A stretch of DNA of 32,936 nucleotides, taken from Microcaldota archaeon (lineage in GTDB: Archaea; Micrarchaeota; Micrarchaeia; Norongarragalinales; Norongarragalinaceae). The notes beneath the pieces were generated by a model, which saw only the letters and a list, made by a program, of their open reading frames with translations, did no database searches and was not told the DNA's origin. Of this stretch, positions 241 to 17,373 are shown one piece after another; the stretch's first letter is position 1, and every line of letters begins with the position of its first letter. The position numbers were made by a program, and so were the translations under genes. The stretch is taken from contig JACRGH010000015.1 in the NCBI GenBank assembly GCA_016212375.1, positions 1 through 32,936 of the forward strand, read 5' to 3'.

Positions 241-1392
241 CTATTTTTTGAAAACCACGTGGAAAACCGCGTCATCGCCCACGGCTTGGACGGTTGCGCC
301 AATAAATCGGATTTCCCGTCCGCGATAAAGCGAAACCCCCTCGGGCCCGGCTAACATTGGTGCCACGACGAAATACGCCTCGTTGATACATTCGGATTCC
401 AAAAACTCCGTTGCCACCTGCGACCCTCCTTCCACCAGGACACTGCGGATGCCGCGTCTGCCTAATTCGGCCAATAGCGCATCCAAACGGACGTGACCAT
501 TTCCCATCGCGGGGCCGGTCCAGACGTCGATGCCGGCTTTTAGGTAGGCGTCTTTTTTTCCCCGGGGGGCCTTATTGGTGCAAATCATCAGTACCGGTCC
601 GTTTTGAAAGACCTGGAATCGGCGCGGATCCAGTTCCAACCGTGAATCCATGATGATGCGTAATGGCTGCTCGTTTTTTGGAAGGGCGCGACCATTCTTT
701 CGGACGCTCAGGCGCGGGTTATCCGCCAAAATAGTACTCTTGCCGACCAAAATCGCGTCATGCTCCGTGCGGAGGCGTTGGACGTTTCTTAGCGCTTTTG
801 GATTGGAGAGCCACCGGTTGGACACCGTGATTTTTCCATCCAATGAGACCGCCATTTTCAGCGTGACCCACGGGCGTCCGGTTTTAATCCAGTGGAAAAA
901 AAGGCGGCTCAAATGCTCGGCATTCGTTTTGAGCACGCCGACGTGGACCGCTATTCCGGCTTTTTTCATGCTGCGGATTCCGGCGCCGTTCACTTTGGGA
1001 TTTTGGTCTAAAGCGGCAACGACGACCCGCCGGATTCCGGCGGAAATAAGCGCTTGCGCACACGGCGGCGTTTTTTTGTCGGCGTGGTGACAAGGCTCCA
1101 TTGTGACGTACGCCGTGGCGCCGCGGGCCCGTATTCCCGCGTGCATTAAGGCCAGCGCTTCAGCGTGGGGTCCGCCAAAGCGTTGGTGGGCGGCCTTTGC
1201 AACGACGCGGTTATTCTTGACCAAAATGCAGGCCACGCGCGGATTCGGCGCGGTTTTGCGAAGGCTTGCGCGTTGGGCCAATCCAAGTGCGCGGCGCATC
1301 CAATAGTCATCGTTTTTCAAGGCCGATTTTTTGGGCGCGGTCAGGCGTCCTTTTTTTTTTCTATCGCCGTTTCCGGTCAATCTTTTGGGCAT
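241..1392 (-). CDS. ribD: Bifunctional riboflavin biosynthesis deaminase/reductase RibD
   Basis: Catalyses two consecutive steps of riboflavin synthesis: deamination of the GTP-derived diaminopyrimidine, then NADPH-dependent reduction of its ribosyl side chain. The N-terminal half is a zinc deaminase: His76-Ala-Glu78, then Pro100-Cys101 and the second zinc Cys111 after PP. The C-terminal half (about 175-383) is a RibD reductase domain, with the '[17 protein letters not shown]' opening and a late '[14 protein letters not shown]' segment. Length 383 aa is normal for the fused bacterial enzyme. Most archaea have only the stand-alone reductase, so this fused form is bacterial-type. The ATG at 1392 overlaps the end of ribBA by 16 bases, implying coupled translation. 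The first 30 residues are a Lys/Arg-rich extension; Met32 ('MRRALGLAQ') is closer to the usual family start. Confidence 0.93.
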
Positions 1393-2651
1393 AGTAATGC
1401 CGGCCTCGGTTTTTTCCCGTTTTTTGAACTAGACCCATTTCCGCGCAAAGCGTGCTTGAACTTGGTGCGTTTGGTTTCCAAATAGGCCGCGCTTTCAGCG
1501 GTTGCCTGGATTTCAAGGGGCACGCGGGCGACCACGTGGATGCCGTGTTCGGTCAAGTCCGTGATTTTTTTAGGATTGTTCGTGAGCAAACGCACTTTTT
1601 GGGCTCCCAACTCCTTCAAGATTTGTGCCGCGACCCAATAATCCCGTAAATCCGCGGCAAAACCCAAATCCAGGTTGGCCTCCACTGTGTCGCGCCCGGC
1701 ATCCTGCAATTCATAGGCCTTGATTTTGTTTTCCAAACCGATGCCCCGGCCTTCCTGGCGCAGGTAGACCAAAATGCCGAATGGTTCGGCCTGGATGCGG
1801 TGCATCGCTTCATCCAGTTGCGCTTTGCAATCGCACCGCTGGGAGTGGAACACCTCGCCGGTCAGGCATTCGGAGTGTACGCGCACCAACGGAATGCGGT
1901 CTTCGTCTTTGGCACTGCGTCGGTCATGGCCCCCCGGTTTACCTTTGACCAATGCAACCGTTTCGCTTTTCTCCCCCATTGCCCGGTAGGTGTGGATTTG
2001 AAATTCGCCCAAAGACGTAGGCAGGCGGGCGGACGCCGTTTTGTAGACCAATTTTTGGTGCGTCCGGCGGTAATTGAGGACCTGTTCGACCGTCACGGTC
2101 TTAAGGTTGTGCTTATTTCCATACGCTTTCAATTCCTTGAGGTCCGCCATGGTGCCATCCGGATTCATGATTTCACAGATGACGGCCGCGGGCTGCAATC
2201 CGGCCAATTGCGCCAAATCGCAACCGGCTTCCGTCTGGCCGATGCGCTCAAAAAGCCCGTTTTCCCGAGCGGAAAGCAAATTAAGGTGCCCGGGTTGAGC
2301 TATGTCGTCCGGGCGGGTTTTAGGATCCAAAAGCAATCGGATGGCGGCGACACGGTCCTGTGCCGACGTGCCGGAACCGCCGTTTTTGCTGCTGACGTTG
2401 ATGGCAAACGGCGTTTGGAACGCCTCGGTATTTTGTTGCACCATCAGGGGGATGCCCAGTTGCTTGCGTCGGGATTCGCGGACGGCCAAGCAGACGAAAC
2501 CGCGCGCCTCGTTGAGCATGAATGCCACGTGCTTGGGCGTAATCTTCTCGGCAGCGACCATGATGTCCCCTTCCCCTTCGCGGTGCTCGTCCAGGAGGAT
2601 GATTGCTTTTCCTTTTCGCAAATCATCAAAAATCGGTTTGAGGTCATCCAT
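1377..2651 (-). CDS. ribBA: Fused RibBA: DHBP synthase / GTP cyclohydrolase II
   Basis: Fused protein for the two entry reactions of bacterial riboflavin synthesis: ribulose-5-phosphate to dihydroxybutanone phosphate (residues about 1-200) and GTP opening by GTP cyclohydrolase II (about 205-400). The cyclohydrolase half looks intact: zinc cysteines Cys262, Cys273, Cys275, then the RQEGRGIGL motif at 298-306. The synthase half keeps Arg24-Glu25 and Glu27-Gly28-Asp29, Cys54, His122 and Glu160. At the usual 'GHTEA' metal-binding position it reads GQTEA, with Gln139 encoded by CAG. This corresponds to E. coli RibB His153, counted from memory of that sequence. The REN triplet is also REG. The C-terminal 30 residues are a basic, low-complexity tail. 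It sits 7 bases after ribH in the same operon. Confidence 0.93.
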
Positions 2652-2658
2652 GGCGGGT

Positions 2659-3144
2659 TCAGCTTTTTTTTGAAACGTTTTTCATTTGATTGGCGGTCAG
2701 AACAACCGCATCCAGCGCGCCTTGGGCATATTCAGTTGCGCGCTCGTGCGCTTGGTCCGATGTGACGCCCGGTCCGATGATGCCGATGCCCACCGGTTTG
2801 TTGGCCAAAAGCGAAAGCTGAACCAATGCAGAGGTGGCGCTGCGGACCACGACATCGTCGTGTGCGGTCTGTCCTTTGATTACCCCCGCCAACACCACGA
2901 CGCCATCAATATGCTTATGCTGCAACAGCGTCTGGGTCAATAGGGGGGTTTCCAAGGCTCCGCGGGCCGAACGGACCTCGGCAATACGGACTCCAAGCAC
3001 CTTCGCCCTTTTTTCGACCACTGCTTGCATCTGTTCGGTCAACGCGGAGCGGAACAAACTGCGCACCAGTCCGATGCGTAGGCCTTTGGCGTTAGTGAGT
3101 GCCTGGACCTGGTTGCCCACGATTTCAAACTCGCGGATGCTCAT
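2659..3144 (-). CDS. ribH: 6,7-dimethyl-8-ribityllumazine synthase RibH
   Basis: Condenses the RibD/phosphatase product with dihydroxybutanone phosphate to form lumazine, the direct riboflavin precursor. Family signs are the '[17 protein letters not shown]' segment with the active-site His about residue 96, and the late 'SDQAHERA' segment, equivalent to the common eQA-xxRa motif. I chose the ATG at 3144 (161 aa). It has a clear AAAGGAG ribosome-binding site at 3154-3160, and its ATGA overlaps the stop of ribC by four bases, so the two are translationally coupled. A longer reading to 3246 would only add a basic stretch inside ribC. Length is slightly above the usual 140-155 aa. Confidence 0.92.
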
Positions 3145-3689
3145 TTGGTTTGGCTCCTTTTTTTGTTCACGTTTTGATTTTCGGATAATCCGCCGACGTC
3201 GTCGCGACCTTGGCGCAAGCCAAGTCCTGCCCGGTTGGTAAACCATTGCGGTTCCAAAAGCATCCGGGCGGCGTTTCGGGCATGCTTGCGCGTCCGGTCG
3301 TCGAAAAGTGCTGACAGCTCGTTTTCATTGCGTGCCTCGTTTTCGTGGACAAAGACTTCGATGATGTGCTTGGAGGTGGCCATTTTGGCCATCTGTATTC
3401 CCAGGCTTGCCTCATGCGCGCACTGACGGTCGATTTTTGCGCCACCGACCATGCCCAACGCCATCGCGATATCGGCGCCGTCATCGAGTTGTCGCTTGCA
3501 TTCGACCGCGAGGTCCTTGATTCCCGGCACGGTAACCCGGACGGTGCGTACGTCAAACGCAGCCAATTCTTGGAGGGCGGCATTGCCCATGTTGAAACGG
3601 GAAAATGTGGTATCGATGATTGCGATTAGGGGGTTGATTTTTTGTTTGGACGTCATATCGGCCGATGATTTGGCACGCGTTTTTGGCAT
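3141..3689 (-). CDS. ribC: Archaeal-type riboflavin synthase RibC
   Basis: Dismutates two lumazines to riboflavin. This is the archaeal, lumazine-synthase-like riboflavin synthase (MJ1184 family), unrelated to bacterial RibE. Diagnostic segments are 'IAIIDTTFSRFNMG' near the N-terminus, 'TVPGIKDLAVECKR' in the middle, 'MALGMVGGAKIDRQCAHEASLGIQ' and 'KHIIEVFVHENEA'. The 182-aa length exceeds the usual ~155 aa because of a 12-residue basic N-terminal extension and a polar C-terminal tail of about 30 residues (after 'GLGLRQG'). Met12 (ATG at 3656) is an alternative start. A TATA-like box at 3711-3718, 22-29 bases upstream of the ATG at 3689, suggests a leaderless mRNA and supports this start. 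Confidence 0.92.
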   Translation of the reverse strand: MPKTRAKSSADMTSKQKINPLIAIIDTTFSRFNMGNAALQELAAFDVRTVRVTVPGIKDLAVECKRQLDDGADIAMALGMVGGAKIDRQCAHEASLGIQMAKMATSKHIIEVFVHENEARNENELSALFDDRTRKHARNAARMLLEPQWFTNRAGLGLRQGRDDVGGLSENQNVNKKRSQTK

Positions 3690-3710
3690 TAGACTTATGG
3701 GTTGCCCGGT

Positions 3711-3758
3711 CTTTTTATGGGCTTCCTAAAAATGCGTAACTACTTATTTTTGAGTAAT
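3711..3758 (-). promoter_or_regulatory. ribC promoter with candidate RbkR operator
   Basis: Read on the minus strand, ATAAAAAG at 3718-3711 is a TATA-like box placed for transcription starting at or near the ribC ATG. Just upstream, 3739-3758 is an imperfect palindrome on the plus strand: ACTACTTA, spacer TTTT, TGAGTAAT (6 of 8 arm positions symmetric). A similar 8-4-8 element lies at the rbkR start, matching at 13 of 20 positions. RbkR proteins are known to bind palindromes before riboflavin genes; assignment of this site is inference. Its place upstream of the TATA box would suit activation or interference with factor binding rather than simple blocking of RNA polymerase. Confidence 0.45.
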
Positions 3759-3760
3759 CA

Positions 3761-3779
3761 GTCCGATGCATGGTCGGAC
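3761..3779 (-). terminator. Short perfect inverted repeat after rbkR
   Basis: GTCCGA (3761-3766) and TCGGAC (3774-3779) form a 6-bp perfect stem with a 7-base loop, 19 bases past the rbkR stop and next to the candidate operator. It may end the rbkR transcript. No T-run follows directly, so the terminator label is tentative. Confidence 0.25.
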
Positions 3780-3797
3780 CAAGGGCCGAACGCGACG

Positions 3798-4412
3798 TCA
3801 AATCAATTCAAGCCGGAGCGCATCTTTGTCCTTGACGCCCAATGCCTTACGCAGGAAAACCGGCGAGAGCAATTCCACCACGTCTTCCGGATAATGCGTC
3901 CGCTCCGGCACGATGATGGCCCCGTTGGCAGTTTTTTTGTTGGCCCGGATGCGGCAGGGGTAGCAACGGGCCGGTCCGAAGGTGCGCTCTTTTTCCTTGA
4001 AACCGTCCAGGCGGAGGCCCGGATTTTGGCGCAAGCGTCGGCTGGCCTGCATGGATTGCGGCTCCTTGATACGGAGATTCAGGGTGCCGGGGTAGGGCTC
4101 GAATCCCAAAAGGCCGGAAAATTGGTCCTGGTATCCGGGCTTTGATAAGTAGTATTTCCCTTCACCCACTCCGGAAAAGACGCGGCCTGAAAGGGCGGCG
4201 GGGTGGTTTTTCTTCAACTGGCTAAGGTAGGTCGCCCCATTTTGGGTGATGCGGTAGTCGCGGTCTTTCTGGATCATGCCTTCTTTTCTCAATAGAAAAA
4301 GCCAGCGGGACGCCGTCTGCTGGGACGTTCCTACCTCTTGGGCTAATTTGTCGGAAGATGCAATCGGGCCGCAATCCAGGCGCATCAACGCGTGGAGCCA
4401 CGTGGGTTTCAT
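3798..4412 (-). CDS. rbkR: RbkR: HTH regulator fused to CTP-dependent riboflavin kinase
   Basis: Bifunctional archaeal protein: an N-terminal winged helix (about 1-80; recognition-helix region 'SQQTASRWLFLLRKEGMI') joined to a CTP-dependent riboflavin kinase (DUF120 family, about 86-204) that makes FMN. Kinase signs are the 'GRVFSGVGEGKYYLS' loop, 'GTLNLRI', the late 'PERTHYPEDVVELLSPVFLR' segment and a C-terminal 'LGVKDKDALRLEL'. RbkR is an established transcriptional regulator of riboflavin genes in archaea, and this copy sits directly before ribC-ribH-ribBA-ribD in the same orientation, as expected. The start at 4412 is preceded at 4437-4444 by a TATA-like TTTATGTA, and a candidate operator lies between the two, suggesting autoregulation. 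The 204-aa length is normal for the fused form. Confidence 0.9.
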   Translation of the reverse strand: MKPTWLHALMRLDCGPIASSDKLAQEVGTSQQTASRWLFLLRKEGMIQKDRDYRITQNGATYLSQLKKNHPAALSGRVFSGVGEGKYYLSKPGYQDQFSGLLGFEPYPGTLNLRIKEPQSMQASRRLRQNPGLRLDGFKEKERTFGPARCYPCRIRANKKTANGAIIVPERTHYPEDVVELLSPVFLRKALGVKDKDALRLELI

Positions 4413-4557: not shown

Positions 4558-4845
4558 TCAGATGCCGACCATGAGGATGATGACGGCCGCTACGATGAAC
4601 AATGTATAGCCTTCCCCAACTCCGGCGGGCAAAATGACGATGAAATAGTACAATAAGGCCAACAGGAAGAGGGGGGCCAACAGGGGAAACGCGTCCATCA
4701 TGGCGCCCATGAGCTCAAATGGAATCTGCAGGAACATGGCGGAACCCCACACCAGGCCGACGCTACCGATGGCCGTGTGGTTGGCAAACGCCAAAAGTAA
4801 CACGAACGTCACCAAAATCCAGGTCGTTTCAGTCGTCGTCTGCAT
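4558..4845 (-). CDS. Small membrane protein, paralogue A (95 aa)
   Basis: I do not recognise the family. The protein is 95 aa, almost entirely hydrophobic, with about four predicted membrane segments (roughly 9-26, 28-50, 54-73, 76-95) and almost no charged residues after the N-terminal 'TTTETTW'. It aligns without gaps over its full length to the next gene upstream (4980-5267); by hand count 49 of 95 positions are identical, including 'QIPF', 'GAM', 'FPL.AP' and 'VGEG'. The strictly conserved Glu in VGEG, inside or next to a membrane segment, may be functional. The pair looks like a tandem duplication. It stands after the riboflavin block and before a cluster of other small membrane proteins. 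Function unknown. Confidence 0.75.
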   Translation of the reverse strand: MQTTTETTWILVTFVLLLAFANHTAIGSVGLVWGSAMFLQIPFELMGAMMDAFPLLAPLFLLALLYYFIVILPAGVGEGYTLFIVAAVIILMVGI

Positions 4846-5461: not shown

Positions 5462-5812
5462 ATGGAAGGAAAGTTTAAGAGTCCAATCGGTGCTAATGCT
5501 TGCATGGCCGAGCTAATGGAAGCGTTTGACTTCGTTGCTACGCTCATCGTTTTTTTCATGACGTATTCTCGGCTGTTCTACCCCGAAGTCATCAACAACA
5601 AGATTGTCGCGTTGTTGGTGACATTCATCGTCATGTTCGTCCTCGTCATACCCTTTCCCATCGTCAAATGGATCATGTTCGTCGGTTTGTTCAGCTACGG
5701 ATTCTTTTGGGGCTTCCGGCCATGGGAATGGGGCTTCACGGATGCTGAAAGCGTCGGAGACCAACAAGGCGGTTTCGGCCAACCCTATGTTGCGCACGAG
5801 CACGACCTTTGA
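5462..5812 (+). CDS. Small membrane protein (about 116 aa), unknown family
   Basis: Not recognised. It has about three membrane segments covering 'FVATLIVFFMTY', 'IVALLVTFIVMFVLVIPFPIV' and 'IMFVGLFSYGFFWGF', followed by a short acidic, Gly/Gln-rich tail ending in HEHDL. The start is uncertain. ATG 5462 gives 116 aa. ATG 5504 gives a more typical membrane-protein N-terminus ('MAELMEAF') and has TTTAAGAG 23-30 bases before it. A TTG at 5408 lies near the start predicted from the TATATATA box. It is the first plus-strand gene of the small-membrane-protein cluster. A stem of ATTTGCCG (5862-5869) with CGGCAAAT (5890-5897) after it may end its transcript. Function unknown. Confidence 0.6.
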   Translation: MEGKFKSPIGANACMAELMEAFDFVATLIVFFMTYSRLFYPEVINNKIVALLVTFIVMFVLVIPFPIVKWIMFVGLFSYGFFWGFRPWEWGFTDAESVGDQQGGFGQPYVAHEHDL

Positions 5813-5861
5813 GTCCAACGAGGCCGGACTGGTCCGTACCCCCTACATCTGCCTCATTTCA

Positions 5862-5897
5862 ATTTGCCGAGGTTTTGGGCTTTTTTCGCCGGCAAAT
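5862..5897 (+). terminator. Inverted repeat between small membrane genes
   Basis: ATTTGCCG at 5862-5869 pairs perfectly with CGGCAAAT at 5890-5897 across a 20-base loop that contains a run of six T. It lies 50 bases after the gene ending at 5812 and before the promoter of the next. A terminator role is likely but unproven. Confidence 0.35.
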
Positions 5898-5899
5898 CA

Positions 5900-5913
5900 A
5901 CGCTTAAAAGCGT
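5900..5913 (+). promoter_or_regulatory. Palindromic TATA-like element before 5932 gene
   Basis: ACGCTT-AA-AAGCGT is a perfect 6-bp inverted repeat whose centre (CTTAAAAG) looks like a TATA box, 19-32 bases before the ATG at 5932. A palindrome centred on the TATA box could let a dimeric repressor block TBP, or the symmetry may be chance. Confidence 0.4.
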
Positions 5914-5931
5914 CAACCCCGTATTGAACCC

Positions 5932-6234
5932 ATGGATTTCACATTCCTGTTCATCATTATCCTGATGCTTTTAGCACTCAAATCGGGCCTGACTATCGTG
6001 GCCGCCGGTTTATTGGTCATATTGGTGTTCACCTCGAAAAGCAAGTGGTTGCTTATGGCAACCGTCGTGGGTGGCGCGTTGGCGCTGGTTGCCGGGTATG
6101 GCGGCGTCAGTTCGTCGTTTGACAATCCAGTTACCTTGGCTATTTTAGCTGGGCTTTTTATCATCCTGCTGATTCTGGCGCGAAGCGATTCGGAAACCCC
6201 GTCGCCCCAAGGATACATGCCGGGAATGATGTAA
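5932..6234 (+). CDS. Small membrane protein with GLT hairpin core (100 aa)
   Basis: Unrecognised 100-aa membrane protein. It has about four membrane segments: an N-terminal hairpin with 'KSGLTIVAAGLLVILV' (residues about 17-32), then two more segments (about 39-57 and 69-83), and a short polar tail ending near 'SPQGYMPGMM'. The GLT at residues 19-21 matches the GLTF core at the same distance from the start in the next two genes, so I group them as distant relatives. The start has a TATA-like palindrome 19-32 bases upstream and no Shine-Dalgarno site, suggesting a leaderless message of its own. Function unknown. Confidence 0.65.
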   Translation: MDFTFLFIIILMLLALKSGLTIVAAGLLVILVFTSKSKWLLMATVVGGALALVAGYGGVSSSFDNPVTLAILAGLFIILLILARSDSETPSPQGYMPGMM

Positions 6235-6323
6235 CCGGTTTTCCGGCATCATCGCCCGGATTCAAACGGTCCCTACAGCCTCATGCTCGAATACCTTCTG
6301 GACCAAATCGATTTCCCGTAAGC

Positions 6324-6330
6324 TTTTATA
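6324..6330 (+). promoter_or_regulatory. TATA-like box before 6354 gene
   Basis: TTTTATA, 24-30 bases before the ATG at 6354, is spaced for a leaderless transcript. It would serve the 6354, 6726 and probably 7121 genes. The preceding gap (6235-6323) holds no gene that I can support. Confidence 0.5.
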
Positions 6331-6353
6331 CGTCCAGCCAAGTAATACCCCTT

Positions 6354-6722
6354 ATGAGCCTATTGATTGTCGCCGCATTGCTTGGCATTGCATATATCCT
6401 GATGGAATCGGGGTTGACTTTTTTCGCACTTATCACATTTTTAGTCGCCATCCTGCATGCGTTAACCTCCCAAAATCGAGCGTCCTATGCTGGTGGAGGC
6501 CATGGCGCAGCCGGAGGGCCACCCAAACAACGACCCGTAATCGTCACCACCACCGGCGGGGACATCCACAATCCCATGAAAATCGCGGTCAAGCATACTT
6601 GGGATGGATCGGACGCGTATTCCGACTTCGTGTTTTACTTGAGTCACTGCATCGCTTGGCCGTTCCGCGTCATTTCCCGCATCATAACCGGAAGACCTGG
6701 CGCTATACGGAAGAGTCACTGA
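6354..6722 (+). CDS. Small membrane protein with GLTF core and KH-W tail, copy 1 (122 aa)
   Basis: Unrecognised. The N-terminal 40 residues form a membrane hairpin with GLTF at residues 20-23. A Gly/His/Pro-rich linker (46-60) follows, then a short beta-type stretch 'PVIVTTTGG'. A C-terminal region has 'NPMKIAVKHTW' (73-83) and an amphipathic or membrane-associated end. It is a clear paralogue of the next gene: similar length (122 versus 123), the same position of GLTF, the same layout, and P..(I/L).(V/L)KH.W in both tails. The two lie 3 bases apart and are surely co-transcribed. The long polar middle suggests a membrane-tethered protein interacting outside the bilayer. Function unknown. Confidence 0.7.
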   Translation: MSLLIVAALLGIAYILMESGLTFFALITFLVAILHALTSQNRASYAGGGHGAAGGPPKQRPVIVTTTGGDIHNPMKIAVKHTWDGSDAYSDFVFYLSHCIAWPFRVISRIITGRPGAIRKSH

Positions 6723-6725
6723 GCC

Positions 6726-7097
6726 ATGAACCTCGTACTGATTGTATTGTTGTTGGGCGGCGCGTTCATCTTTGAGCAGATGGGCTTGACCTTTGTCGCC
6801 ATCCTGTTGGTCATCCTCACCGTCCTATTGTTGGTTACGGGTAGCGGTTCGGACTCGGGGCATGGCTCAAAACAGAACGTGAACATCACCGAGCCGTTCG
6901 GACCGGATGGGCCAATCGTAGTAGAGAACAAGGTTCCGGATGTGCCATATCCGTTGATGTTGAAACTCAAACACGACTGGCACGATTACCGGCAGTTTGA
7001 ATATTCGTTCATGAACTTCGGCTCATCCATGAACAATCTGGGCAATTTCTTTTGGATGCTGCTGTCAGGCCAGCGGCCGCCCAAGGAAGACCATTGA
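6726..7097 (+). CDS. Small membrane protein with GLTF core and KH-W tail, copy 2 (123 aa)
   Basis: Paralogue of the gene just upstream: N-terminal hairpin (about 1-38) with GLTF at residues 20-23, Gly/Ser-rich linker, 'GPIVVENKV', then 'YPLMLKLKHDW' (75-85) and an aromatic, Asn/Phe-rich end 'FMNFGSSMNNLGNFFWMLL'. The ATG lies 3 bases after the previous stop, so it relies on reinitiation or coupling. No known domain is recognised. The repeated pattern of hairpin, flexible linker and KH-W tail in adjacent genes suggests proteins that assemble together, for example as subunits of one membrane complex. This is inference. Confidence 0.7.
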   Translation: MNLVLIVLLLGGAFIFEQMGLTFVAILLVILTVLLLVTGSGSDSGHGSKQNVNITEPFGPDGPIVVENKVPDVPYPLMLKLKHDWHDYRQFEYSFMNFGSSMNNLGNFFWMLLSGQRPPKEDH

Positions 7098-7120
7098 TTT
7101 GACAATAAGGGTTTTTTTTC

Positions 7121-7561
7121 ATGGAACGGAATGTATATGGCGGTTTGCTGGGCGTGGCCGTTTTGGGCCTATTGCTCAATTTTGAATGGCTTTTCCTGAC
7201 GTTCATCCTGCTTGCCGGCGGCCTTTTTTTGGCCGAGCGGCTCAGTTCCCCCGCTCCGTCGTTTGTTGGTGAATATTCTGGCGGTCCGGACGTCCCGGGG
7301 CAATATGCCGCTCCGCAGGCGCCCATCGTCATCCAATCCGCCACCCAGTCGCCATCATCCAACATGATGATGGATATGATTAGTAACCTGGTGCAAGAAA
7401 GTGCGACGTACCAGCGGCCCAATTCGCCTTGGAAGAAAATGACGGGCCAAATGGACAAGATTGGCGGCCGTTTAAAAAAGATGGAGCACACCTTGGAACA
7501 TTTGGAAAAACACGCCAAAGACGCGGACAAAACCGGTCACGGGGGAGGCGGCCATCACTGA
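7121..7561 (+). CDS. Small membrane protein with coiled-coil and His-rich tail (146 aa)
   Basis: Unrecognised. It has an N-terminal membrane hairpin (about 6-40, 'LLGVAVLGLLLNFEWLFLTFILLAGGLFLAERL') comparable to the GLTF hairpins upstream. Next come a Pro/Gly/Ser-rich linker (44-83) and a Met-rich helix ('SNMMMDMISNLV'). A charged helix likely to form a coiled coil (about 104-135, 'KMTGQMDKIGGRLKKMEHTLEHLEKHAK') leads to a tail ending G-H-G-G-G-G-H-H. The tail could bind a metal. It follows the 6726 gene by 23 bases in the same direction and probably belongs to that operon. Function unknown. Confidence 0.7.
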   Translation: MERNVYGGLLGVAVLGLLLNFEWLFLTFILLAGGLFLAERLSSPAPSFVGEYSGGPDVPGQYAAPQAPIVIQSATQSPSSNMMMDMISNLVQESATYQRPNSPWKKMTGQMDKIGGRLKKMEHTLEHLEKHAKDADKTGHGGGGHH

Positions 7562-7650: not shown

Positions 7651-8169
7651 TTATTTTAATCTCAACAAAACATCCCGTTGCGATTGCAGAATCTTCTGGT
7701 TTATGTCCTGCAACGCTTTCAGTAAGGCTATGGTCTGGTCCAATTTCTGTTCCACCGTGTCCAAATCTCCCGTAAGCGAAGTCTTGGAAATGGGCCGCAT
7801 AAGCGAGACGGCCGATTCGGCCATGTCGGATGAGCCAGCCGCCGATTTTTCATTTGCCTGGACCGTTTCTTCTTTTTCACCCTGGTCGGAGACGCGGGTG
7901 AACGAAAATCCGGATTTCTCGGAACCGCCAAATAATTCTTTATCCTGGCTCCCGCCCTCATCCGTTGATTCGGGCAAAGTCGGAGCAGCGGTGGGGGCAC
8001 TTGTCGCTTTAGGTGCCGGGCCGCTGGTTGAAACGGGCTTCATCCGGTCTATGGCTTCCGCAAACACGGTATCCGGGTCCTCGATGCCCAACTCTTTCAG
8101 GTTGTCCTTGATTTGCTGCTCGCTCATGCCGGCGTTGAGCATTTCGCGGATGATTGATTTGAGGTCCAT
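7651..8169 (-). CDS. Small soluble protein with N-terminal helical module and coiled coil
   Basis: 172-aa protein of unknown function, convergent with the membrane cluster. Residues 1-40 form a compact helical module ('SIIREMLNAGMSEQQIKDNLKELGIEDPD'), of a kind often seen as a short regulatory or oligomerising domain. The middle (about 45-115) is low-complexity, Ser/Pro/Ala/Glu-rich and likely disordered. The C-terminal 45 residues ('DLDTVEQKLDQTIALLKALQDINQKILQSQ') have the heptad pattern of a coiled coil. No membrane segment or signal is seen. CTTAAAAC, about 27-34 bases before the ATG at 8169, may be its TATA box. Confidence 0.7.
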   Translation of the reverse strand: MDLKSIIREMLNAGMSEQQIKDNLKELGIEDPDTVFAEAIDRMKPVSTSGPAPKATSAPTAAPTLPESTDEGGSQDKELFGGSEKSGFSFTRVSDQGEKEETVQANEKSAAGSSDMAESAVSLMRPISKTSLTGDLDTVEQKLDQTIALLKALQDINQKILQSQRDVLLRLK

Positions 8170-8274: not shown

Positions 8275-9819
8275 TCAGGACAAAACCACGATTCCGGACA
8301 AATGCAACGCCAACACCGCCATAAATGCGTAATCCAGAACGAAAACCGCGGTTTCCATCTTCTTGAAATCCGAAATTAGGGCAACGGCACTTGCACCGGC
8401 CAACCCGAATGCCACGCCGATGGGCCAAAACAGTCCGGAAAGCCAGGATGCCCACAAAACGGCGAGCAATATTAAAATGGCGATGATATTTTTGGCCGTT
8501 TTTACGCCCAACCATCCGGGCAAGGTGAATACCCCGTTTTTACGGTCGCCTTTTGCATCTTTGAGGTCCTTGAACTGGGACGCCAGAACAACAAATCCGA
8601 AAATCAACGCCGTAAGCATTGAGGCTTTGGGCGTATCCAGTCCGGTTTCCGGTTGCGCCAAACCGACGGTTAGGCCGGCCAAGAATACTGAAAGAGAGCA
8701 TCCGGCTAGAACCATGGAGGCCAAAACGAAATGCCGGCGCAAACGGAGGGGTGGAACCGAGTACACGATGGACAATGCACTTGCAAAAAGCATCAACGCT
8801 GCCGCGACATAGCCTGCGGCCCATGCACACAAGATGCCGCTTACGTAAAATAGTGCAATCCGGGCGAACGGCTGTGCATCGGTTTTCTTTTTCGGCGACG
8901 TTATCCGGTCAATCCCGATGTCAAAATAATCGTTGAGCCAAACCGCGGCCTGGAACGCCAAAAAAATGCCGGCACAAAGGCTTGCCAGCGGCAATACCGC
9001 CCCCCAACCAATGTGGCCCCATGACGCTTTGCCAATAAGGGCACCCATGAGCACTAAGCCGACGTAATGCAATGACCGCTCCAGTCGCAGTTGTGCCAGC
9101 CATTCCGCGGTCGTGGTTTGGAACGTTGTCGTTTCGTAAGCCCAGTTTGCCTTTGAAGCCCATAAAACCGCGATTGCAAACATGAGCGCATACGTCGAAA
9201 CTATTTCGCGGAACAAAAAGACGTCGGGAAACACATGACCGAACTGTGCCATGAAAAAGCCGGGTAAAAACGCCTGGACGATGACGAAAAGATAGAACAA
9301 CGCGGCGACCGCCACCGTTTTCACGGCGTTGCGGCTTGCGTGCCACACATACGCCGCCGCGACCAAGATCGCCACCAAAACCTCGATTCGCAAACCATTG
9401 GACACGCCGCTACAACTGGCACAAAACGACGTAAGTCCGTCCACAAAGGAACCGGGATTGAACATGTACGTCAAGGAAAAGCCCGAACCGGAGGACAAGA
9501 TGAAGTCCACAAACGGGGGTATCCAAAGCACAGGCGAGAATGCCGTGACCACTTTGAGGGCAGAAACCAAGGGCTTGCCTGAAAAGCGCCACAAAAGAAC
9601 CAGCATGACGCATAAAACGGCTGAAAAGTACAGGAAGAAAAGCAACAAGGATTGTAACGGTTCGACCGTTTTTTGCGCCTCCAGTGTCCATTCCAAGATG
9701 ATGCGGATGAAGACCACGGCTGCAAGGGTCAACACGCACCAGGCGGGTTGGACGTCGGTGTTTTCAATGTCGGAAAAAACCGTCGAAAACCATCTTGAGG
9801 GCGGGTTGGAAAATGCCAT
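8275..9819 (-). CDS. UbiA-family prenyltransferase with extra N-terminal membrane domain
   Basis: The C-terminal half (about 250-514) is a UbiA-type membrane prenyltransferase. The first Asp-rich motif is Asn296-Asp297-Tyr-Phe-Asp300-xxx-Asp304, then 'YSVPPLRLRR' in the loop, and the second motif is Asp418-xx-Asp421-xx-Gly-Asp425. Together these bind the Mg-diphosphate of an isoprenoid donor. In archaea UbiA proteins include the geranylgeranylglyceryl-phosphate geranylgeranyltransferase of membrane-lipid synthesis, but the acceptor cannot be read here. The N-terminal 250 residues are an unrecognised domain with about six membrane segments, which nearly doubles the normal UbiA length of about 280-300 aa. 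The ATG at 9819 is the first in frame. It lies downstream of the hepT gene on the same strand, 85 bases away. Confidence 0.85.
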   Translation of the reverse strand: MAFSNPPSRWFSTVFSDIENTDVQPAWCVLTLAAVVFIRIILEWTLEAQKTVEPLQSLLLFFLYFSAVLCVMLVLLWRFSGKPLVSALKVVTAFSPVLWIPPFVDFILSSGSGFSLTYMFNPGSFVDGLTSFCASCSGVSNGLRIEVLVAILVAAAYVWHASRNAVKTVAVAALFYLFVIVQAFLPGFFMAQFGHVFPDVFLFREIVSTYALMFAIAVLWASKANWAYETTTFQTTTAEWLAQLRLERSLHYVGLVLMGALIGKASWGHIGWGAVLPLASLCAGIFLAFQAAVWLNDYFDIGIDRITSPKKKTDAQPFARIALFYVSGILCAWAAGYVAAALMLFASALSIVYSVPPLRLRRHFVLASMVLAGCSLSVFLAGLTVGLAQPETGLDTPKASMLTALIFGFVVLASQFKDLKDAKGDRKNGVFTLPGWLGVKTAKNIIAILILLAVLWASWLSGLFWPIGVAFGLAGASAVALISDFKKMETAVFVLDYAFMAVLALHLSGIVVLS

Positions 9820-9904: not shown

Positions 9905-10261
9905 TTAACCCGTTTTGTTTTTTTTGATTTCCTTTTTGATTTTCAAGACGGTGACTTCCAATTCATCCAGGTTTTCGTGGATGGTCTTCCAAATGAATTC
10001 CTTCTTGACGCCGAAGTATGCGTGGATGAGTATATCCCGCATTCCGGTGATTTCTTTCCAAGGCAATTTAGGGTGAGTGGTACGAATCGCTTCGGGAATG
10101 TTCTTGGCCGCTTCCCCGATGATTTCCAGCCGGCGGATGACGGCATCCTGAGTCTGGCGCTTGGCCATGAATCCGGCGAGGTCCATGTTTTCGGTATATT
10201 CGCGGATGCATCCGATGCATTCAAGGATATCCTCCAAATAGACGGAAATGTCGCGTTTCAT
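9905..10261 (-). CDS. hepT: HepT-type HEPN toxin (DUF86)
   Basis: 118-aa all-helical HEPN protein, the toxin of a type VII toxin-antitoxin pair. The HEPN RNase motif R-x4-H-x-Y is present as Arg75-DILI-His80-Ala-Tyr82. In characterised systems the Tyr is the residue AMPylated by the partner MntA to neutralise the RNase. The 'EIIGEAAKNIPEAIR' stretch before it is also typical. Its ATG overlaps the stop of the antitoxin gene by four bases (ATGA), so the two are coupled, antitoxin first. The usual Asn after the motif Arg is Asp here, a common variant in this family. The Lys-rich tail ends at an inverted repeat CCAGA..TCTGG near 9884-9902. Confidence 0.9.
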   Translation of the reverse strand: MKRDISVYLEDILECIGCIREYTENMDLAGFMAKRQTQDAVIRRLEIIGEAAKNIPEAIRTTHPKLPWKEITGMRDILIHAYFGVKKEFIWKTIHENLDELEVTVLKIKKEIKKNKTG

Positions 10262-10539
10262 GTCAAGCGGACCTCTTCCGCAAGCACCCGGTGTTTAAGC
10301 GCAGGTTTGAGGGTATCGTATTCAACCAAATCCACTTTGCGGCCCAGTGCCTTTTCAAGATCGAGTTTCAGTCCGATGAATTCAAAAAGGCCGATGTTTC
10401 GGTCAAACCGGACCAAGATATCGATGTCGCTGTCCTTGCGCATTTCGTCCCGTGCCGCGGAACCGAACAACCCGGCCCGGCTGACGTGATGCCGGTCCAG
10501 AATTAAGGCGATTTTCCGTTGGATTGTTTTGACGTCCAT
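10258..10539 (-). CDS. mntA: MntA-type minimal nucleotidyltransferase antitoxin
   Basis: 93-aa nucleotidyltransferase with the GSxxR/DSDIDIL signature (Gly26-Ser27, Asp38 and Asp40), the antitoxin that AMPylates HepT in characterised systems. Length and gene order (mntA then hepT with ATGA overlap) are typical. Just upstream, TTTAAAAT (10565-10558 on the minus strand) may be the TATA box, about 19-26 bases before the ATG. A 13-bp near-perfect inverted repeat (10571-10610) stands directly upstream of it and could be an operator for autoregulation. Confidence 0.9.
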   Translation of the reverse strand: MDVKTIQRKIALILDRHHVSRAGLFGSAARDEMRKDSDIDILVRFDRNIGLFEFIGLKLDLEKALGRKVDLVEYDTLKPALKHRVLAEEVRLT

Positions 10540-10746: not shown

Positions 10747-13700
10747 TTATCCTCCCGCAATGGTCCACAACGCCCCTTTGCAGGCAAACGCGGTCGCCGT
10801 ACCGAAGGACCAGGACAGGCATCCGCCCAAATCACCGATGCTGATGGACGTGATGACGTTCGAGGCAAGGTTGACGGCCGTAATGGCAGGCGAACTTGCC
10901 CCCATCATCCCGCTTGTTGCAGCTGAAAGGCCGGCGGTTACAATTCCCGTGACAATACCCGCTAACGCGCTGGTCGTAGACACAGTTGCAACCGTAATTG
11001 CGCCCACAAGTGGGGTTAACGCAGGTGCCGCTAAAGTTGCAAGAGCTTGAGTACTTGCGGCTGCAATTGTTGAACCGGATCCAATAACCGTTCCCCCTAT
11101 GCTTACCGTAGCGGTTGTCGTAGTAAACGCAGTCGCAATCGCCGGTCCAATCACGAAGAACGCCAATGCCATCAGCAACAACGGCAACAAAATTTGCAGC
11201 AGCCCATACCCCCCGCCTTTCTTGCATCCGCAGTCCTTGCTGCAGCCCAAATCCTTGACCCAGTTGAAGTCTTTTTGGCCCGTGTAATGGCCCAGCGGAT
11301 CCCAATGGTGCAGGGTCTGGACGTCCACATGGTATTTGTGTTTTTCATCCCGGGCAGGCACGCCTTGCGGGAATTGGTTCCCACAGTAGTCCCCTCCGGT
11401 TCCAGGCTCGACCAACGCAAAAAGATGGCCATCAGGCGTTACTCCGTACCCCGTGCCTTGTTTGATTCCGGAGCCTAAACCGCCGAGCAAGGACATTTCC
11501 ACGCCCGGACGCTTCGGACCGCCCGAATACTGCAAAATCGAGTTGAAGCACGAACCGTATTGGGAGGAGTGGTCCACGAACGTCGTTTCACACAACCGCG
11601 TGTTCCATTGGGTGCCCTTACGGCATAAGTCAGACCGGGCGCCGATGTAATTCGTGATGGGCAAGTCCACGGCTTTGGCAGTGGATGTCCAGACCACGCC
11701 TTGCGCATCCATCGAACTGTAATCGCGGATGAGATGCACGCCCTGTTGCGGGAATAACGTTTGGTCATACGGGTAGTCTGAGCCACCGCAACCGTCCACG
11801 CTCAACATCCTAGGCATGGAATCCAAGGCACCGGCCGCGTTTTTCGAATTGACGATGTACGACGCGGCAAAGACCGGTTTTCCGTTGGCTGAAGACTGGT
11901 ATTGGTCGGCCGATTCTTGGTACGCGTCTGAAAACAGCGAAGCGGGCGAGAAGGATTTGCCGTGGCCTAAAAAGACCGTGTCCATCCGGACCGGCACGAC
12001 CGGCGTGGTGTTCACCCAGTTGTTGAAAATGGTGTTGGTCGTCCCGGTCGGCACGTAGCTTGCACCGCTTGCCAAACACAAGGGGGATGGGTTGCAGTTG
12101 GGCTGGTTGCAGTAATTTTCGCAGGAGGAGAAGCAGTATTTTGCCACTGCCAAAAAGCCGGAAGAACACGTGTAGCTTCCGGGTGCAAATGGGTTGGGTG
12201 TAGCCGGTATGATTGTCGAGGCGCCAGCCGTATTTGCATTGATGAATCCATTATCCGTCGGCCCGGTCACGCACGTGGGCATGTTCGGATACAGCGGGTC
12301 GGACGCCGGATTTAGCAATAGCGGGCACATGCCGTTGCGGCAGCGCTGGATGTCCGCGGGCGTGGCAATGGTGCGTGGGATTAGATTGCCGTTTACGTCG
12401 CCGGGTGAGAAGAATAACGCTTCGCTGACCGCCATAATCTGGCCGGTTGGACACGCGTACTTCGCGGGAGCCGGGGTGCACCCGAACGACCCCCCGCCTA
12501 ATCCATTGCCACAAGTAACGGCCGGAACATACGTTGCATTCGATAGGGATTCAGTGGATTGCCATAACCCGTCATTGTTGGCATCGAGCGCACAATCCGG
12601 GGACGTGGCACTTGATCCCATGAACGTATTGACCGGTTCGACAACCAATGGGCATGCACCGTTGCTTTGACAAAGCGAGAATTCGACGCTGGTTATAGAC
12701 GTCAGGGGGGTTGCCGGGTTGTAGTAGGTGAATTGGTTGCCGGCGCTTTGGAACGCATTCAGGGATGAAAATTGCACCTCGCATTTGCGGCCGCTCAAAA
12801 CATCGCCGTAATTCAGGACGGTCACACCAGTGCCAGTAAGGCCAATCTGGTTAGCCGCATCCTGATACGCGACGGGCAAGGCGGATTTAAGGGTGCATCG
12901 CTGGTCGCATTGATATACATGGCTCGTGGATTCATAGGTGCACGCACCATACTTCACCGTATGTTGCTGAGTCGTATTCGTGCACGACGGGTTGTAGGTG
13001 TTGTTGCAAAAAGTGCAGCTGTCTTGGCGGAAATCCATCTGTACGGTATTGTTCTTCCACGCATCGATGCTCTCGCGGCAACAACCCGGCAAGGTATATA
13101 GCGAAGAAAGACATTGTTGGGTCTGTTCGCAATACCGCGTCACCGCGCTTGAGCGCCAATACGCCGTCCGATTGGCCAACGCCGGCACGGACCCGCTCAA
13201 CGCGATGGCCGCCCCCGTATCCAAGAATGTGTTTTCCGACTGCGATGCGCTCAACGTGTTTGCCAATGCCCGCGTGTAATCCTGGAATCCTGGAATATTC
13301 AAGTCAATGGATTGATAAATGGCTGCCAACGCCAGGCTGTAACGGGAAATAGGCGCAACCGGACTTCCAGACGCCACGCCTAGGTCCAAAATCGGATGAT
13401 CCAAATCCATTCCGTCAAAGGCCTGGATGTTACCTCCATTGGGGTTGATGGCCACCACTTGCGTGCCCGGACCGTCGAATTTGAGGGCGAAGTTGGATGG
13501 TTGTTTGAACACGATGGTGCGCGGGCCCAATTGCTTGAGGTTCGTCACGGCCCACAACTGTGGATAAAGCCGGCCGATGGAGGAGTACATCGTATACACC
13601 GGCGAGAGGTAGATGCTCGAATCGGATACGTCGTTCAAGACGTGCAGTGTGACGTTCCGGCGGACGGTCTGATCGCCAGTAAATCCGAATTCCAACGTGA

Positions 13701-16700
13701 TTTGGGAACGCGCAATGGAATTTCCGTTCACTTTGAATTTTTGCGGACAGGTACTCCGAAGTTCCGGACTGTAACGCAAGAAATACTGCTGGCCGCCGTA
13801 CAATGTCTTGCCTAATGCGTCGCATCCGAAAATGGCCCCGGTTTGGTCCGTTTCACAAATTTCATAGCACGTGTGCGACCCATCACTGAGGGATGCGCGC
13901 GTCAACACTTGGCCGTAATCCGGAATGGATATGTTCAGGATGGTCGCATCGGCCGGGAAAATCGGAGATACGCGGAAAGCCAAATCGGTGCACCCTTTAC
14001 CTAACGTAAACGGCGGATTGGCGCTGACGTTGTACTTTATTCCGATGTAACCGTTGCATGTATCCCAACCCGGCGGGAACGGGTCCGAGCCATTGAATGA
14101 AATATCCGAACCACCGATGGACACCGCCCGACTCAACGACGTCGATTGACCGGGTAAATCGCGCGTGATGGAAATGCGCGAAGAACCGCTCGTTACCGGG
14201 ACCAAGAATCGCGCCAACCCGGTCATGCTTTGCCCGATATTCAATACCGGAACGCTTGCAGTGGGTTGGACGTCATACAATTGCAATGGCGCGCTTGCCT
14301 GGACTTTGGGCGACAGTGTGCCCCCGGTCAAGGCCGTGATGCGATACGTCGCATTGACGAATCCGACGTCGCACTTGCCCTCCAAAATATGGCTGGAGGT
14401 GCAATTGCCGGTGGATAAGGCGGAAAATGTGGCCTCATCGGACAATTGGTTTTCGCCTTGGCCCAACACCGATTCAACAATGGCAAAATCATTGGCCGCA
14501 ACGCCGTAGCCGTCTACCTGGACCAAACCGGAATGCATCAAAGTCGAATTAAAACCCGATAGGGTCAATGACAAATTGGCCGTTCCGTTTTGCAGCACCC
14601 GGCCCTTCGCCACACCATCCATACGAAGTGGCAGGCCAAAATTGGTGCATCGGCCCAATTCGCTTAAGTTCAGTGAAAACGAGGATTTCCACACGGCAAA
14701 GGGGACGCCGCGTCGTAGGTCACACATCATACCGGTACCCAAGGTCGATGGTCCGATAAAGGGTGTGCTTGCGTTGAAAAGCACGAGGTTTTCAGACGGC
14801 GCCCCAAATGATAAACGGGCGGACGAATTGGGTGCCGTGAACAATTCCAGTGAGTAATACACATAAAATGGTTCAAGCCGCGTGGCATTATCCACCAGGA
14901 TTTGGTTGCGTACGTCAATTGAATCCGTTCCTTCCGCCTCCCCTTGGGCAAACCGAAGCGTCAAGCAGGCCTGACCATTGCAGGTGGTGCCTGTGCTTTT
15001 GACAGTGAAATTTTGGGCATACGCCCGTGCCGGACAACCGGATGGATGCGTCTGGCCGGGCCGGGTAGTCAAGGATGGGTCATACGGATTACGCAGATAG
15101 TCCGTTCCGCGTACGATGTAGCTCCGATAAGCCAAGGATAGCGTCTTGGTTTTGGTCCTTGGTTCCAACGCCATCTGGGAATCCAGTGTGACATTGAACG
15201 TCACCGATCCGTTGGTCGCGCCATTGTAACGGACGTCGACCCACGCGTTCTGGCTGTTGGCAAAATTGACCGGCGATGCATAACAACTATCCGCGTAAGA
15301 CCCCTTGGTATCAAAACCTGCCGGGTCCACCCCCGTTATGGTGACGTCATCATTCTGCGTATTCATGACTACGCCGGTTTGTTGCGCATCCTTGGAAAAA
15401 ACTTTGACACGTGCCAAATAGGAATGGCCTGGTTTCAACGGAACGCCTGCCAATTGGTTGCGTTCATTGAACAGCCCGATCCATTGGATGAACGTATCAT
15501 TCAACGCGCTGGAATTGACAAGATATAGCGTGACGTTGCGCTCGATTCCCTCATATAGGTTAAACATATCCGGCGTTCCGACATAGCCTTCCGCGGACAC
15601 CGTAACGCCGACATCCTCTCCGGAAACCATCGTCAACATGCAGCCGTTTCCAAGACATGCACCGACGTTCCGTGAACCCACAAACGATTGGAAACTGGCG
15701 TTGGCGACGTATTGGCGCGACAGGGGATCATACGCGAACGCCCGGACTTGGAACGGTCGTTTGGATAAATGGAGTTGCAACCGGTTCACGCCCTGGACCA
15801 ACGTGGCATTGGCGCTTCCGCTTTGATCATACGTCGATGCCGTTACATTGACCACTGTTCCGACCAGCATCCCGGAAAACAACGCCTCGCCTGTGCCGGA
15901 TGCGGTCTTTTGGTCCGACACATACCACGCACCGAAATACGTCTTGGCTTTGAGTACCATGTCCGAATAGGATGCATTCGCACCGGATTCCTCGACAGCA
16001 TGCGCCAAAACGCGCGACTCGTTCCCACCCAAGCCACATTCCGGATTCGTATCAAGGGAGTCACAGGTGCCGATGGATCCGTTGTTGGCCGGAAGGACGA
16101 TGACGGCGGTCTGATTGACGGTGAACGGCGCGGAATAATTCGACAAAAATCCGGTTGCCGAGGCAAATGCGAAATACGAACCGTTGCCAACGGTCAGGGC
16201 GACCAGCCCACGGTCATCCGAGTAATCCGAATACAACACTTCTTCCCGACCCATGAGAATTACGTTCACACGGGCACCGGCAATGGCGGAACCGTTTTGT
16301 GCAATGACCTTGACCCCCGCCCAGTTGGAATTGCTGCACCAGTTCGGCAACAACAGGCAGGTCTCATTGCCTGGGCCGACATATCCACCCGAGCCGTTGA
16401 CCAACGTGATGGAAACCCGGTTGGTCGCGGGCCGGATGGGTATCACGGTCGCGTTTCCAAAATAGGGGATAAACCCTTCGGCAAATGCATCCACGTACAC
16501 TTGGCGGCCCACAAGCAAGTTCGGCACCAACCCCGAGCCTTGCACCACATCGACGTATTCAATGGCGCCTTGCGTCCGGGCGTCGTACACCACGGCCCGC
16601 CCATCCAACGGCGTTCCGTTAATGTCTTTTACTATAATCAACAATCGTCCAGTAGGGGAATCCGGATCCGGGTCTGAAAAAGTCAGGTTGGTTTGGTTGT

Positions 16701-17328
16701 CCCCCGGTCCGAGGTACCAATTTTCGGGATTACCAGTAGTATTTTCACCATAGGGCCAATCCGTCGAATTGGGGTCTTGCAAACTCACATTATAGAGGGG
16801 GTCGTCCGGATTAACGCCTGATTCAAAAAAGGCCGCACGGCATTTCGTGGGCGTGTCGCACGTAAGTTCCAAGCGCACGTTGGTTTTAAGTGCGGAATCA
16901 AATGTTTGGCTCTGTTCCTTGAACCCGTCTTTTTGCGCCCGGATGGACAGTGTCTTTTTTGGCGCATTGTCGAATTTGACTCGGCCTTTGACCGTTTTTT
17001 TGGAAAACAGGACGCCGGTTTCATCCGAAAGTTCCACCGTCGCCCCTTCGAGCGGCACGGGATTGGCAACGCCTAATTTGCCCAATACCACGACCTGGAT
17101 GCTGGGCGGTTGCTCCGCCGTCAGCACCAAAAGCGAGCCGCCGACCAGGAGTAAAAAAAGCAGTAACGCAATCAAAAAGGAGGGTATGCCTTTGGATTCA
17201 ATCGGGTCCACGAAATAATCATAGACGGGTACGGAGAATTTTTCCTCCAAGTCATCCAACGCCTTGTAGTACCCTTCCTCAAGCAAAAAGTAGGCCTTCA
17301 AAATAGGCTTAAGAACTTCCCCCAGCAT
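10747..17328 (-). CDS. Giant membrane-anchored surface protein (about 2193 aa)
   Basis: Unrecognised as a whole. A cytoplasmic N-terminal helix of about 48 residues precedes one membrane segment ('FLIALLLFLLLVGGSLLVL', about 50-70), so the bulk is outside. The next ~600 residues read as successive small beta domains resembling carboxypeptidase-regulatory/Ig-like folds (e.g. 'AIAGARVNVI...DDRGLVALTVGNGSYFAFASATGF'). The middle (about 600-1350) is further beta-rich sequence. The region about 1400-1900 is Cys-rich. A DxNxDG acidic loop (Asp-Ala-Asn-Asn-Asp-Gly) may bind calcium. The last ~160 residues follow a 'CSKDCGCKKGGG' cluster and are very hydrophobic Ala/Thr/Gly/Ile sequence. Many Asn-x-Ser/Thr sequons suggest glycosylation. 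ATG 17328 is preferred; a TTG at 17346 is possible. It may be an adhesin or cell-envelope component, which is inference. Confidence 0.85.
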   Translation of the reverse strand: MLGEVLKPILKAYFLLEEGYYKALDDLEEKFSVPVYDYFVDPIESKGIPSFLIALLLFLLLVGGSLLVLTAEQPPSIQVVVLGKLGVANPVPLEGATVELSDETGVLFSKKTVKGRVKFDNAPKKTLSIRAQKDGFKEQSQTFDSALKTNVRLELTCDTPTKCRAAFFESGVNPDDPLYNVSLQDPNSTDWPYGENTTGNPENWYLGPGDNQTNLTFSDPDPDSPTGRLLIIVKDINGTPLDGRAVVYDARTQGAIEYVDVVQGSGLVPNLLVGRQVYVDAFAEGFIPYFGNATVIPIRPATNRVSITLVNGSGGYVGPGNETCLLLPNWCSNSNWAGVKVIAQNGSAIAGARVNVILMGREEVLYSDYSDDRGLVALTVGNGSYFAFASATGFLSNYSAPFTVNQTAVIVLPANNGSIGTCDSLDTNPECGLGGNESRVLAHAVEESGANASYSDMVLKAKTYFGAWYVSDQKTASGTGEALFSGMLVGTVVNVTASTYDQSGSANATLVQGVNRLQLHLSKRPFQVRAFAYDPLSRQYVANASFQSFVGSRNVGACLGNGCMLTMVSGEDVGVTVSAEGYVGTPDMFNLYEGIERNVTLYLVNSSALNDTFIQWIGLFNERNQLAGVPLKPGHSYLARVKVFSKDAQQTGVVMNTQNDDVTITGVDPAGFDTKGSYADSCYASPVNFANSQNAWVDVRYNGATNGSVTFNVTLDSQMALEPRTKTKTLSLAYRSYIVRGTDYLRNPYDPSLTTRPGQTHPSGCPARAYAQNFTVKSTGTTCNGQACLTLRFAQGEAEGTDSIDVRNQILVDNATRLEPFYVYYSLELFTAPNSSARLSFGAPSENLVLFNASTPFIGPSTLGTGMMCDLRRGVPFAVWKSSFSLNLSELGRCTNFGLPLRMDGVAKGRVLQNGTANLSLTLSGFNSTLMHSGLVQVDGYGVAANDFAIVESVLGQGENQLSDEATFSALSTGNCTSSHILEGKCDVGFVNATYRITALTGGTLSPKVQASAPLQLYDVQPTASVPVLNIGQSMTGLARFLVPVTSGSSRISITRDLPGQSTSLSRAVSIGGSDISFNGSDPFPPGWDTCNGYIGIKYNVSANPPFTLGKGCTDLAFRVSPIFPADATILNISIPDYGQVLTRASLSDGSHTCYEICETDQTGAIFGCDALGKTLYGGQQYFLRYSPELRSTCPQKFKVNGNSIARSQITLEFGFTGDQTVRRNVTLHVLNDVSDSSIYLSPVYTMYSSIGRLYPQLWAVTNLKQLGPRTIVFKQPSNFALKFDGPGTQVVAINPNGGNIQAFDGMDLDHPILDLGVASGSPVAPISRYSLALAAIYQSIDLNIPGFQDYTRALANTLSASQSENTFLDTGAAIALSGSVPALANRTAYWRSSAVTRYCEQTQQCLSSLYTLPGCCRESIDAWKNNTVQMDFRQDSCTFCNNTYNPSCTNTTQQHTVKYGACTYESTSHVYQCDQRCTLKSALPVAYQDAANQIGLTGTGVTVLNYGDVLSGRKCEVQFSSLNAFQSAGNQFTYYNPATPLTSITSVEFSLCQSNGACPLVVEPVNTFMGSSATSPDCALDANNDGLWQSTESLSNATYVPAVTCGNGLGGGSFGCTPAPAKYACPTGQIMAVSEALFFSPGDVNGNLIPRTIATPADIQRCRNGMCPLLLNPASDPLYPNMPTCVTGPTDNGFINANTAGASTIIPATPNPFAPGSYTCSSGFLAVAKYCFSSCENYCNQPNCNPSPLCLASGASYVPTGTTNTIFNNWVNTTPVVPVRMDTVFLGHGKSFSPASLFSDAYQESADQYQSSANGKPVFAASYIVNSKNAAGALDSMPRMLSVDGCGGSDYPYDQTLFPQQGVHLIRDYSSMDAQGVVWTSTAKAVDLPITNYIGARSDLCRKGTQWNTRLCETTFVDHSSQYGSCFNSILQYSGGPKRPGVEMSLLGGLGSGIKQGTGYGVTPDGHLFALVEPGTGGDYCGNQFPQGVPARDEKHKYHVDVQTLHHWDPLGHYTGQKDFNWVKDLGCSKDCGCKKGGGYGLLQILLPLLLMALAFFVIGPAIATAFTTTTATVSIGGTVIGSGSTIAAASTQALATLAAPALTPLVGAITVATVSTTSALAGIVTGIVTAGLSAATSGMMGASSPAITAVNLASNVITSISIGDLGGCLSWSFGTATAFACKGALWTIAGG

Positions 17329-17373
17329 ACCAGCATAAATCGTCAAGCCAATAAAAACCCTCTTGATTCACCC
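17329..17373. promoter_or_regulatory. Compact divergent promoter between the giant gene and argS
   Basis: Only 45 bases separate the two ATGs (17328 minus, 17374 plus). A single AATAAAAA run (17350-17357) lies about 17-24 bases before argS and, read as TTTTTATT, about 22-29 bases before the giant gene. It may be a shared TATA element that fires in both directions. Confidence 0.4.

Follow-up and report, generated by a model that had tools for sequence, protein, structure and literature searches.

The window (32,936 nt, the entire contig C70 of genome G000, which comprises 1.34 Mb and is 82% complete) carries five neighboring plus-strand genes for small membrane proteins, and the question raised by this locus is whether these proteins are subunits of one membrane assembly and, if so, of what kind. 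The original prediction had presented the five genes as a cluster of related hairpin proteins. All five open reading frames were confirmed, and the cluster is real, but the five genes make up about half of the set. C5a, C5b, and S13 in the window, as well as M0 to M3 and GP elsewhere in the genome, had not been included. The members of the set located in the window are:

4558 to 4845, minus strand: C5a, a duplicated membrane protein of about 95 amino acids with three to four predicted transmembrane helices
4980 to 5267, minus strand: C5b, a paralogue of C5a
5504 to 5812, plus strand: P1, 102 amino acids, two to three transmembrane segments, related to M2 by profile
5932 to 6234, plus strand: P2, 100 amino acids (MDFTFLFI...), two predicted hairpins
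6354 to 6722, plus strand: P3, an N-terminal transmembrane hairpin, a linker, the motif P..(I/L).(V/L)KH.W, and a C-terminal amphipathic helix
6726 to 7097, plus strand: P4, a paralogue of P3 with an identical layout
7121 to 7561, plus strand: P5, a member of the P3/P4 family with a hairpin and a longer charged tail, probably a coiled coil
7651 to 8169, minus strand: S13, a soluble protein of 172 amino acids with an N-terminal helical domain and a C-terminal coiled-coil-like helix, both predicted from the sequence

Coding status of the small genes

The start of P1 had been placed at position 5462, which is not common to the relatives; because their starts lie at or close to the corresponding methionine, 5504 was adopted. 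In comparison with the sister species (L023), dN/dS was about 0.09 for P1, 0.13 for P2, and 0.10 for both P3 and P4, and P5 showed a dN of 0.12 with saturated dS. P1 to P5 are under purifying selection and are therefore functional coding genes. C5a shares 62% identity with the copy of the next species, with a dN/dS of about 0.14. A single scan of genome contigs recovered just one very close relative, a Candidatus Micrarchaeota genome with 80% identity at P4.

Duplicated building blocks

Repeated duplication of a single architecture had been proposed for these genes. Duplication was borne out, although it involves two blocks (P3/P4/P5 and M2/P1) plus the C5 pair instead of one. The paralogy of P3 and P4 was recovered directly, as the P4 query retrieved P3 in its own genome (E=7e-7). 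Both proteins have GLTF at residues 20 to 23, and their tails (PMKIAVKHTW in P3 and PLMLKLKHDW in P4) fit the predicted motif. P5, for which only a similar hairpin had been suggested, turned out to be a true member of the P3/P4 family in profile-profile comparisons with disjoint member sets (probability 96%, E=4e-9), with a score of 56.6 against a maximum of 28.5 among 200 block-shuffled controls. The family is characterized by an N-terminal transmembrane hairpin that turns near residue 20, followed by a flexible linker and a P(I/V)(I/V)V motif; most P3/P4 members also have a motif resembling IP...K..W and an amphipathic helix at the C-terminus.

The kinship proposed for P2 was only partly upheld: a weak hairpin resemblance is present, but a clear link to the P3/P4 family was not obtained. 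Over the first 32 columns only, P2 scored 26.0 against P5 (control maximum 23.1) and 20.0 against P3/P4, the latter not reaching the highest control score (25.6). P1 lies outside the P3/P4/P5 family and groups by profile with M2 (score 36.1, with 200 controls reaching at most 24.6; non-overlapping member sets); in genome G021, the P1 profile matches a stretch that overlaps the M2 match (E=6e-5). A further duplicated membrane gene is found on the opposite strand in C5a and C5b, which are 52% identical in the alignment.

Predicted topology and structure models

Hydropathy analysis gave two to four transmembrane segments in the M, P1, P2, and C5 proteins and none in S13; most P3/P4/P5 proteins have an N-terminal hairpin of one to two segments. 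AlphaFold2 models of P4 and P2 were built from shallow alignments and are of low confidence. The P4 model contains helices at residues 2 to 18 and 22 to 39, a disordered linker, and a helix at residues 90 to 114 (mean pLDDT 56, about 80 in the hairpin), and the P2 model contains helices at residues 3 to 18, 21 to 34, 38 to 56, and 66 to 87 (mean pLDDT 67). The C-terminal helices are amphipathic. Because the tails of the P3/P4/P5 family and of M3 are charged, the positive-inside rule suggests that they are placed in the cytosol.

A conserved gene block

Gene calling and family profiles on loci from the order revealed the conserved layout DUF424 - M0 - M1 - M2 - M3 - P1 - (P3-like) - P2 - P3/P4 - P5, with S13 and GP in divergent orientation beside the block and C5 inserted at varying places. 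Among the fetched loci of the order, P2 was adjacent to P3/P4 in 20 cases, M1 to M2 and M2 to M3 in 16 each, P1 to P2 in 15, P3/P4 to P5 in 13, M0 to M1 in 12, and M3 to P1 in 11; S13 and GP were found as a divergent pair in 12. The median same-strand gap within the block was 18 nt, and 65% of these gaps were shorter than 30 nt. The gene order is maintained across several families of the order, while other flanking genes differ among them. The DUF424 gene, annotated as of unknown function in Pfam, is kept beside M0 in L032, L033, L127, L132, L137, L141, and L144, suggesting that this neighborhood is old.

Members of the window's genus have the block broken up and distributed over several places. 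In G000, contig 29 carries M1 to M3, contig 55 carries M0, and GP is found on contig 64. Since the modules are split in some genomes, including this one, the strict logic of an operon encoding a complex is weaker there.

Other genes of the window were also identified. A set of riboflavin genes (241 to 4412, minus strand), kept beside the cluster in the genus, includes a CTP-dependent riboflavin kinase (3798 to 4412; PF01982, E=3e-40), which is preceded by probable RibD-, RibA/B-, and RibE-like genes recognized by inspection only; in the window these genes adjoin the block, and the sister species has them between M3 and C5/P1. Norongarragalinales and Anstonellales are described as biosynthetically rich orders (PMC12892359), and the riboflavin genes would be compatible with an order of that type. 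A UbiA-type prenyltransferase with an extra N-terminal transmembrane region (8275 to 9819; PF01040, E=6.5e-20) adjoins S13 in the genus, and the sequence patterns of a small gene pair at 9905 to 10539 resemble those of a HEPN/MNT (nucleotidyltransferase) module. Very long open reading frames at 10747 to 17346, 24163 to 28974, and 28981 to 32781 (2199, 1603, and 1266 amino acids) probably encode surface proteins; the first shows weak CarboxypepD_reg matches and has homologues beside the cluster in L023 to L025.

Distribution in the phylum

The phylum sample consisted of 301 genomes, comprising 29 species genomes of the window's Micrarchaeota order and 272 genomes outside it. P2 was found in 24 of the 29 and in none of the 272. 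Within the order, P1 and P3/4/5 were each present in 24 genomes, M0 in 22, M2 in 23, M3 in 25, and S13 and GP in 26 each, the P1 and M3 counts coming from searches within the order only. Outside the order, the matches were weak or partial (M0, 5; M2, 3; P3/4/5, 4; S13, 1; GP, 7 partial), and those of the partial GP matches that were examined proved to be HerA-type ATPases whose P-loop is intact. Neighborhood conservation, which the original prediction had named as a check, is strong across the order.

Many of the gaps in this distribution are probably explained by genome incompleteness. In G015 (91% complete), contig 12 carries P3/4 (377 to 550) followed by S13 and GP, and P1 and P2 would be expected at the start of the contig. 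G005 (88% complete) belongs to the window's family, which otherwise has the cluster, and none of the eight component profiles was found in it; it is a real or an assembly exception.

GP, a degenerate HerA-type protein

GP proteins (410 to 580 amino acids) have no significant Pfam match of their own; one member gave a match to the central domain of HerA (E=0.1). With hhalign, GP aligned with intact HerA-type ATPases over 260 columns (probability 96.7%, E=4.6e-10) and with HerA at a probability of 92.7% (E=4e-7), which identifies it as a homologue with the RecA-like core of the HerA/FtsK-type P-loop superfamily. In all 13 copies examined in the order, Walker A and the acidic pair of Walker B are lost, and the Walker A loop is replaced by GGSKQER, GGTRESR, GNGKKER, and similar sequences. 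HerA-type ATPases outside the order (L145 to L147) have GSTGTGKS and DEAH intact. Judged from its sequence, the loss of these motifs makes GP a pseudo-ATPase, which would not be expected to bind ATP.

The HerA-type ATPases with a C-terminal transmembrane tail found in other Micrarchaeota (L145 and L146) share the core fold with GP. However, GP differs from them in the absence of Walker A (GSTGTGKS) and of the DE of Walker B, in its N-terminal region, and in its linkage within the genome to S13 and the membrane genes. In Micrarchaeota genomes, HerA-type Walker A regions (GGTGSGKS, GASGSGKT) were also observed within giant open frames that reach 12,373 codons (L152:10410-10709, G019:C12, and L149:2798-3097, G029:C6).

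Search for known relatives

Scans of Pfam, NCBIfam, PHROGs, and PADLOC (the libraries varied by family) gave nothing above noise for the membrane proteins that were run, and PDB profile searches with P2, M2, P1, M0, S13, M1, and P3/4/5 returned no significant match. M0 was considered as SpoIIM/DUF95, and this assignment was rejected; PF01944 exceeds its cut-off in other genes of the order, and M0 compared with those gave an hhalign probability of 0.1%. A defense or viral origin was rejected, as no family matches were obtained, and a mobile system is disfavored because the genes are nearly universal in the order. Remote relations to cellular families may be hidden from the searches used.

No description of the block was found in the literature. 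The claim that no described system has this form stands insofar as no established family was found for the membrane parts. The accessible parts of Castelle et al. (2021; PMC8204110) describe DPANN lineage-specific families as mostly membrane or extracellular and without predicted function, and the block resembles such families in these respects. It is not described in those parts, and it differs from such families in general, as there presented, in that about ten families here form one conserved syntenic block.

Weighing the explanations

The conserved gene order, the operon-like distances between genes, the agreement in distribution, and the recurrence of hairpin units argue for one membrane assembly, and we assign a probability of about 0.5 to the reading that the genes encode a single hetero-oligomeric assembly of scaffold type that is located in the cytoplasmic membrane and is specific to the order. 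Homology to a known family with established function, or lack of conservation outside this genome, had been named as grounds for abandoning such a view; neither was found, because the cluster is conserved outside the genome and searches gave no established family for its membrane parts. Since the genes stay together in the order and have almost no counterparts in the rest of the phylum or in family databases, the block probably builds one machine that has not previously been described. Conservation, duplication, and the absence of a known family all agreed with the idea of subunits of one assembly; the assembly itself we infer from gene order and co-occurrence, and the biological role is likewise deduced. 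Any specific role is proposed with much lower confidence than the figure above. Alternatively, the products could be separate small membrane proteins that form no single complex and whose genes have stayed close together because genomes in this order rearrange slowly. The modules DUF424-M0, M1-M3, P1-P5-S13, and GP do come apart in some genera, and housekeeping neighbors (DUF424) are conserved beside the block as well. Nevertheless, the gene order persists across families whose other flanks differ, and the operon-like gaps, the matching distributions, and the recurrence of one type of small membrane protein make this explanation less likely.

Less probable still is a machine for DNA transfer that derives from type IV secretion or resembles Ced/Ted but has diverged strongly, with the hairpins as pilin or pore subunits and GP as a descendant of VirB4/CedB/HerA. 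Ced and Ted are domesticated type IV secretion systems for archaeal DNA import. Ced consists of CedA, two small proteins with two transmembrane segments (CedA1 and CedA2), and the VirB4/HerA-like ATPase CedB, and its parts have no recognizable sequence similarity to those of Ted (PMC9905601). The block likewise combines small two-transmembrane hairpins with a protein of the HerA/VirB4 superfamily. However, the P-loop of GP is degenerate in 13 of 13 copies, the TraG/VirB4 P-loop domain PF19044 exceeded its cut-off in only five of the 29 genomes of the order and in none of the window's family, and the cluster contains no CedA/VirB6-like channel with six to seven transmembrane segments, the count being at most four by hydropathy. 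An active T4SS/Ced motor was rejected on the basis of the GP motifs and the VirB4 distribution. As to pilin-type features (VirB2/CedA1), a hairpin is present in the low-confidence P4 model, but solved pilins in the PDB gave no profile match, the block contains several small-protein families, and the predicted cytosolic tails are long (about 80 residues in P3/P4). Mrp-type complexes and the membrane arms of hydrogenases contain small multi-transmembrane subunits, and the tandem subunits of 80 to 150 amino acids resemble these; an ion-translocating or antiporter-like complex is nonetheless very improbable, given that the cluster revealed no large proton-channel subunit, that conserved charged residues are few in the predicted transmembrane segments, and that Pfam and PDB matches did not rise above noise. 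Because membership in Ced/Ted failed, we favor the scaffold-type membrane assembly.

Proposed organization and significance

In the scaffold-type assembly, most subunits would be short transmembrane hairpins or proteins with three to four transmembrane segments, several of them arising from the duplicating P3/P4/P5 and P1/M2 blocks. The predicted topology would place the charged, amphipathic tails of the hairpins on the cytosolic face, where S13, through its helical domain and coil, may link them to GP. Because its ATP site is lost, GP would probably serve as a structural ring or docking platform and not as a pump; that a dead HerA-type protein is kept across the order suggests such a function. 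The scaffold would organize the membrane or envelope; it may be a station for secretion or envelope assembly that draws its power from a different enzyme.

In DPANN archaea, lineage-specific membrane families are frequent but usually lack context, whereas roughly twelve are tied together here by gene order and near-universal presence. An unannotated stretch thereby becomes a complex that can be tested, and its named parts form a defined set for co-expression, co-purification, or modeling. It would be unusual for a membrane complex to have a conserved HerA-type pseudo-ATPase at its edge. The fullest form of the proposal, a membrane nanomachine without described relatives in which about ten small subunits sit on a catalytically dead HerA-type ring in nearly every member of the order, is possible but rather doubtful. 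If true, it would mean that a DNA-pump ATPase has become a structural platform, perhaps in place of a conserved function that served the envelope, secretion, or division in the order.
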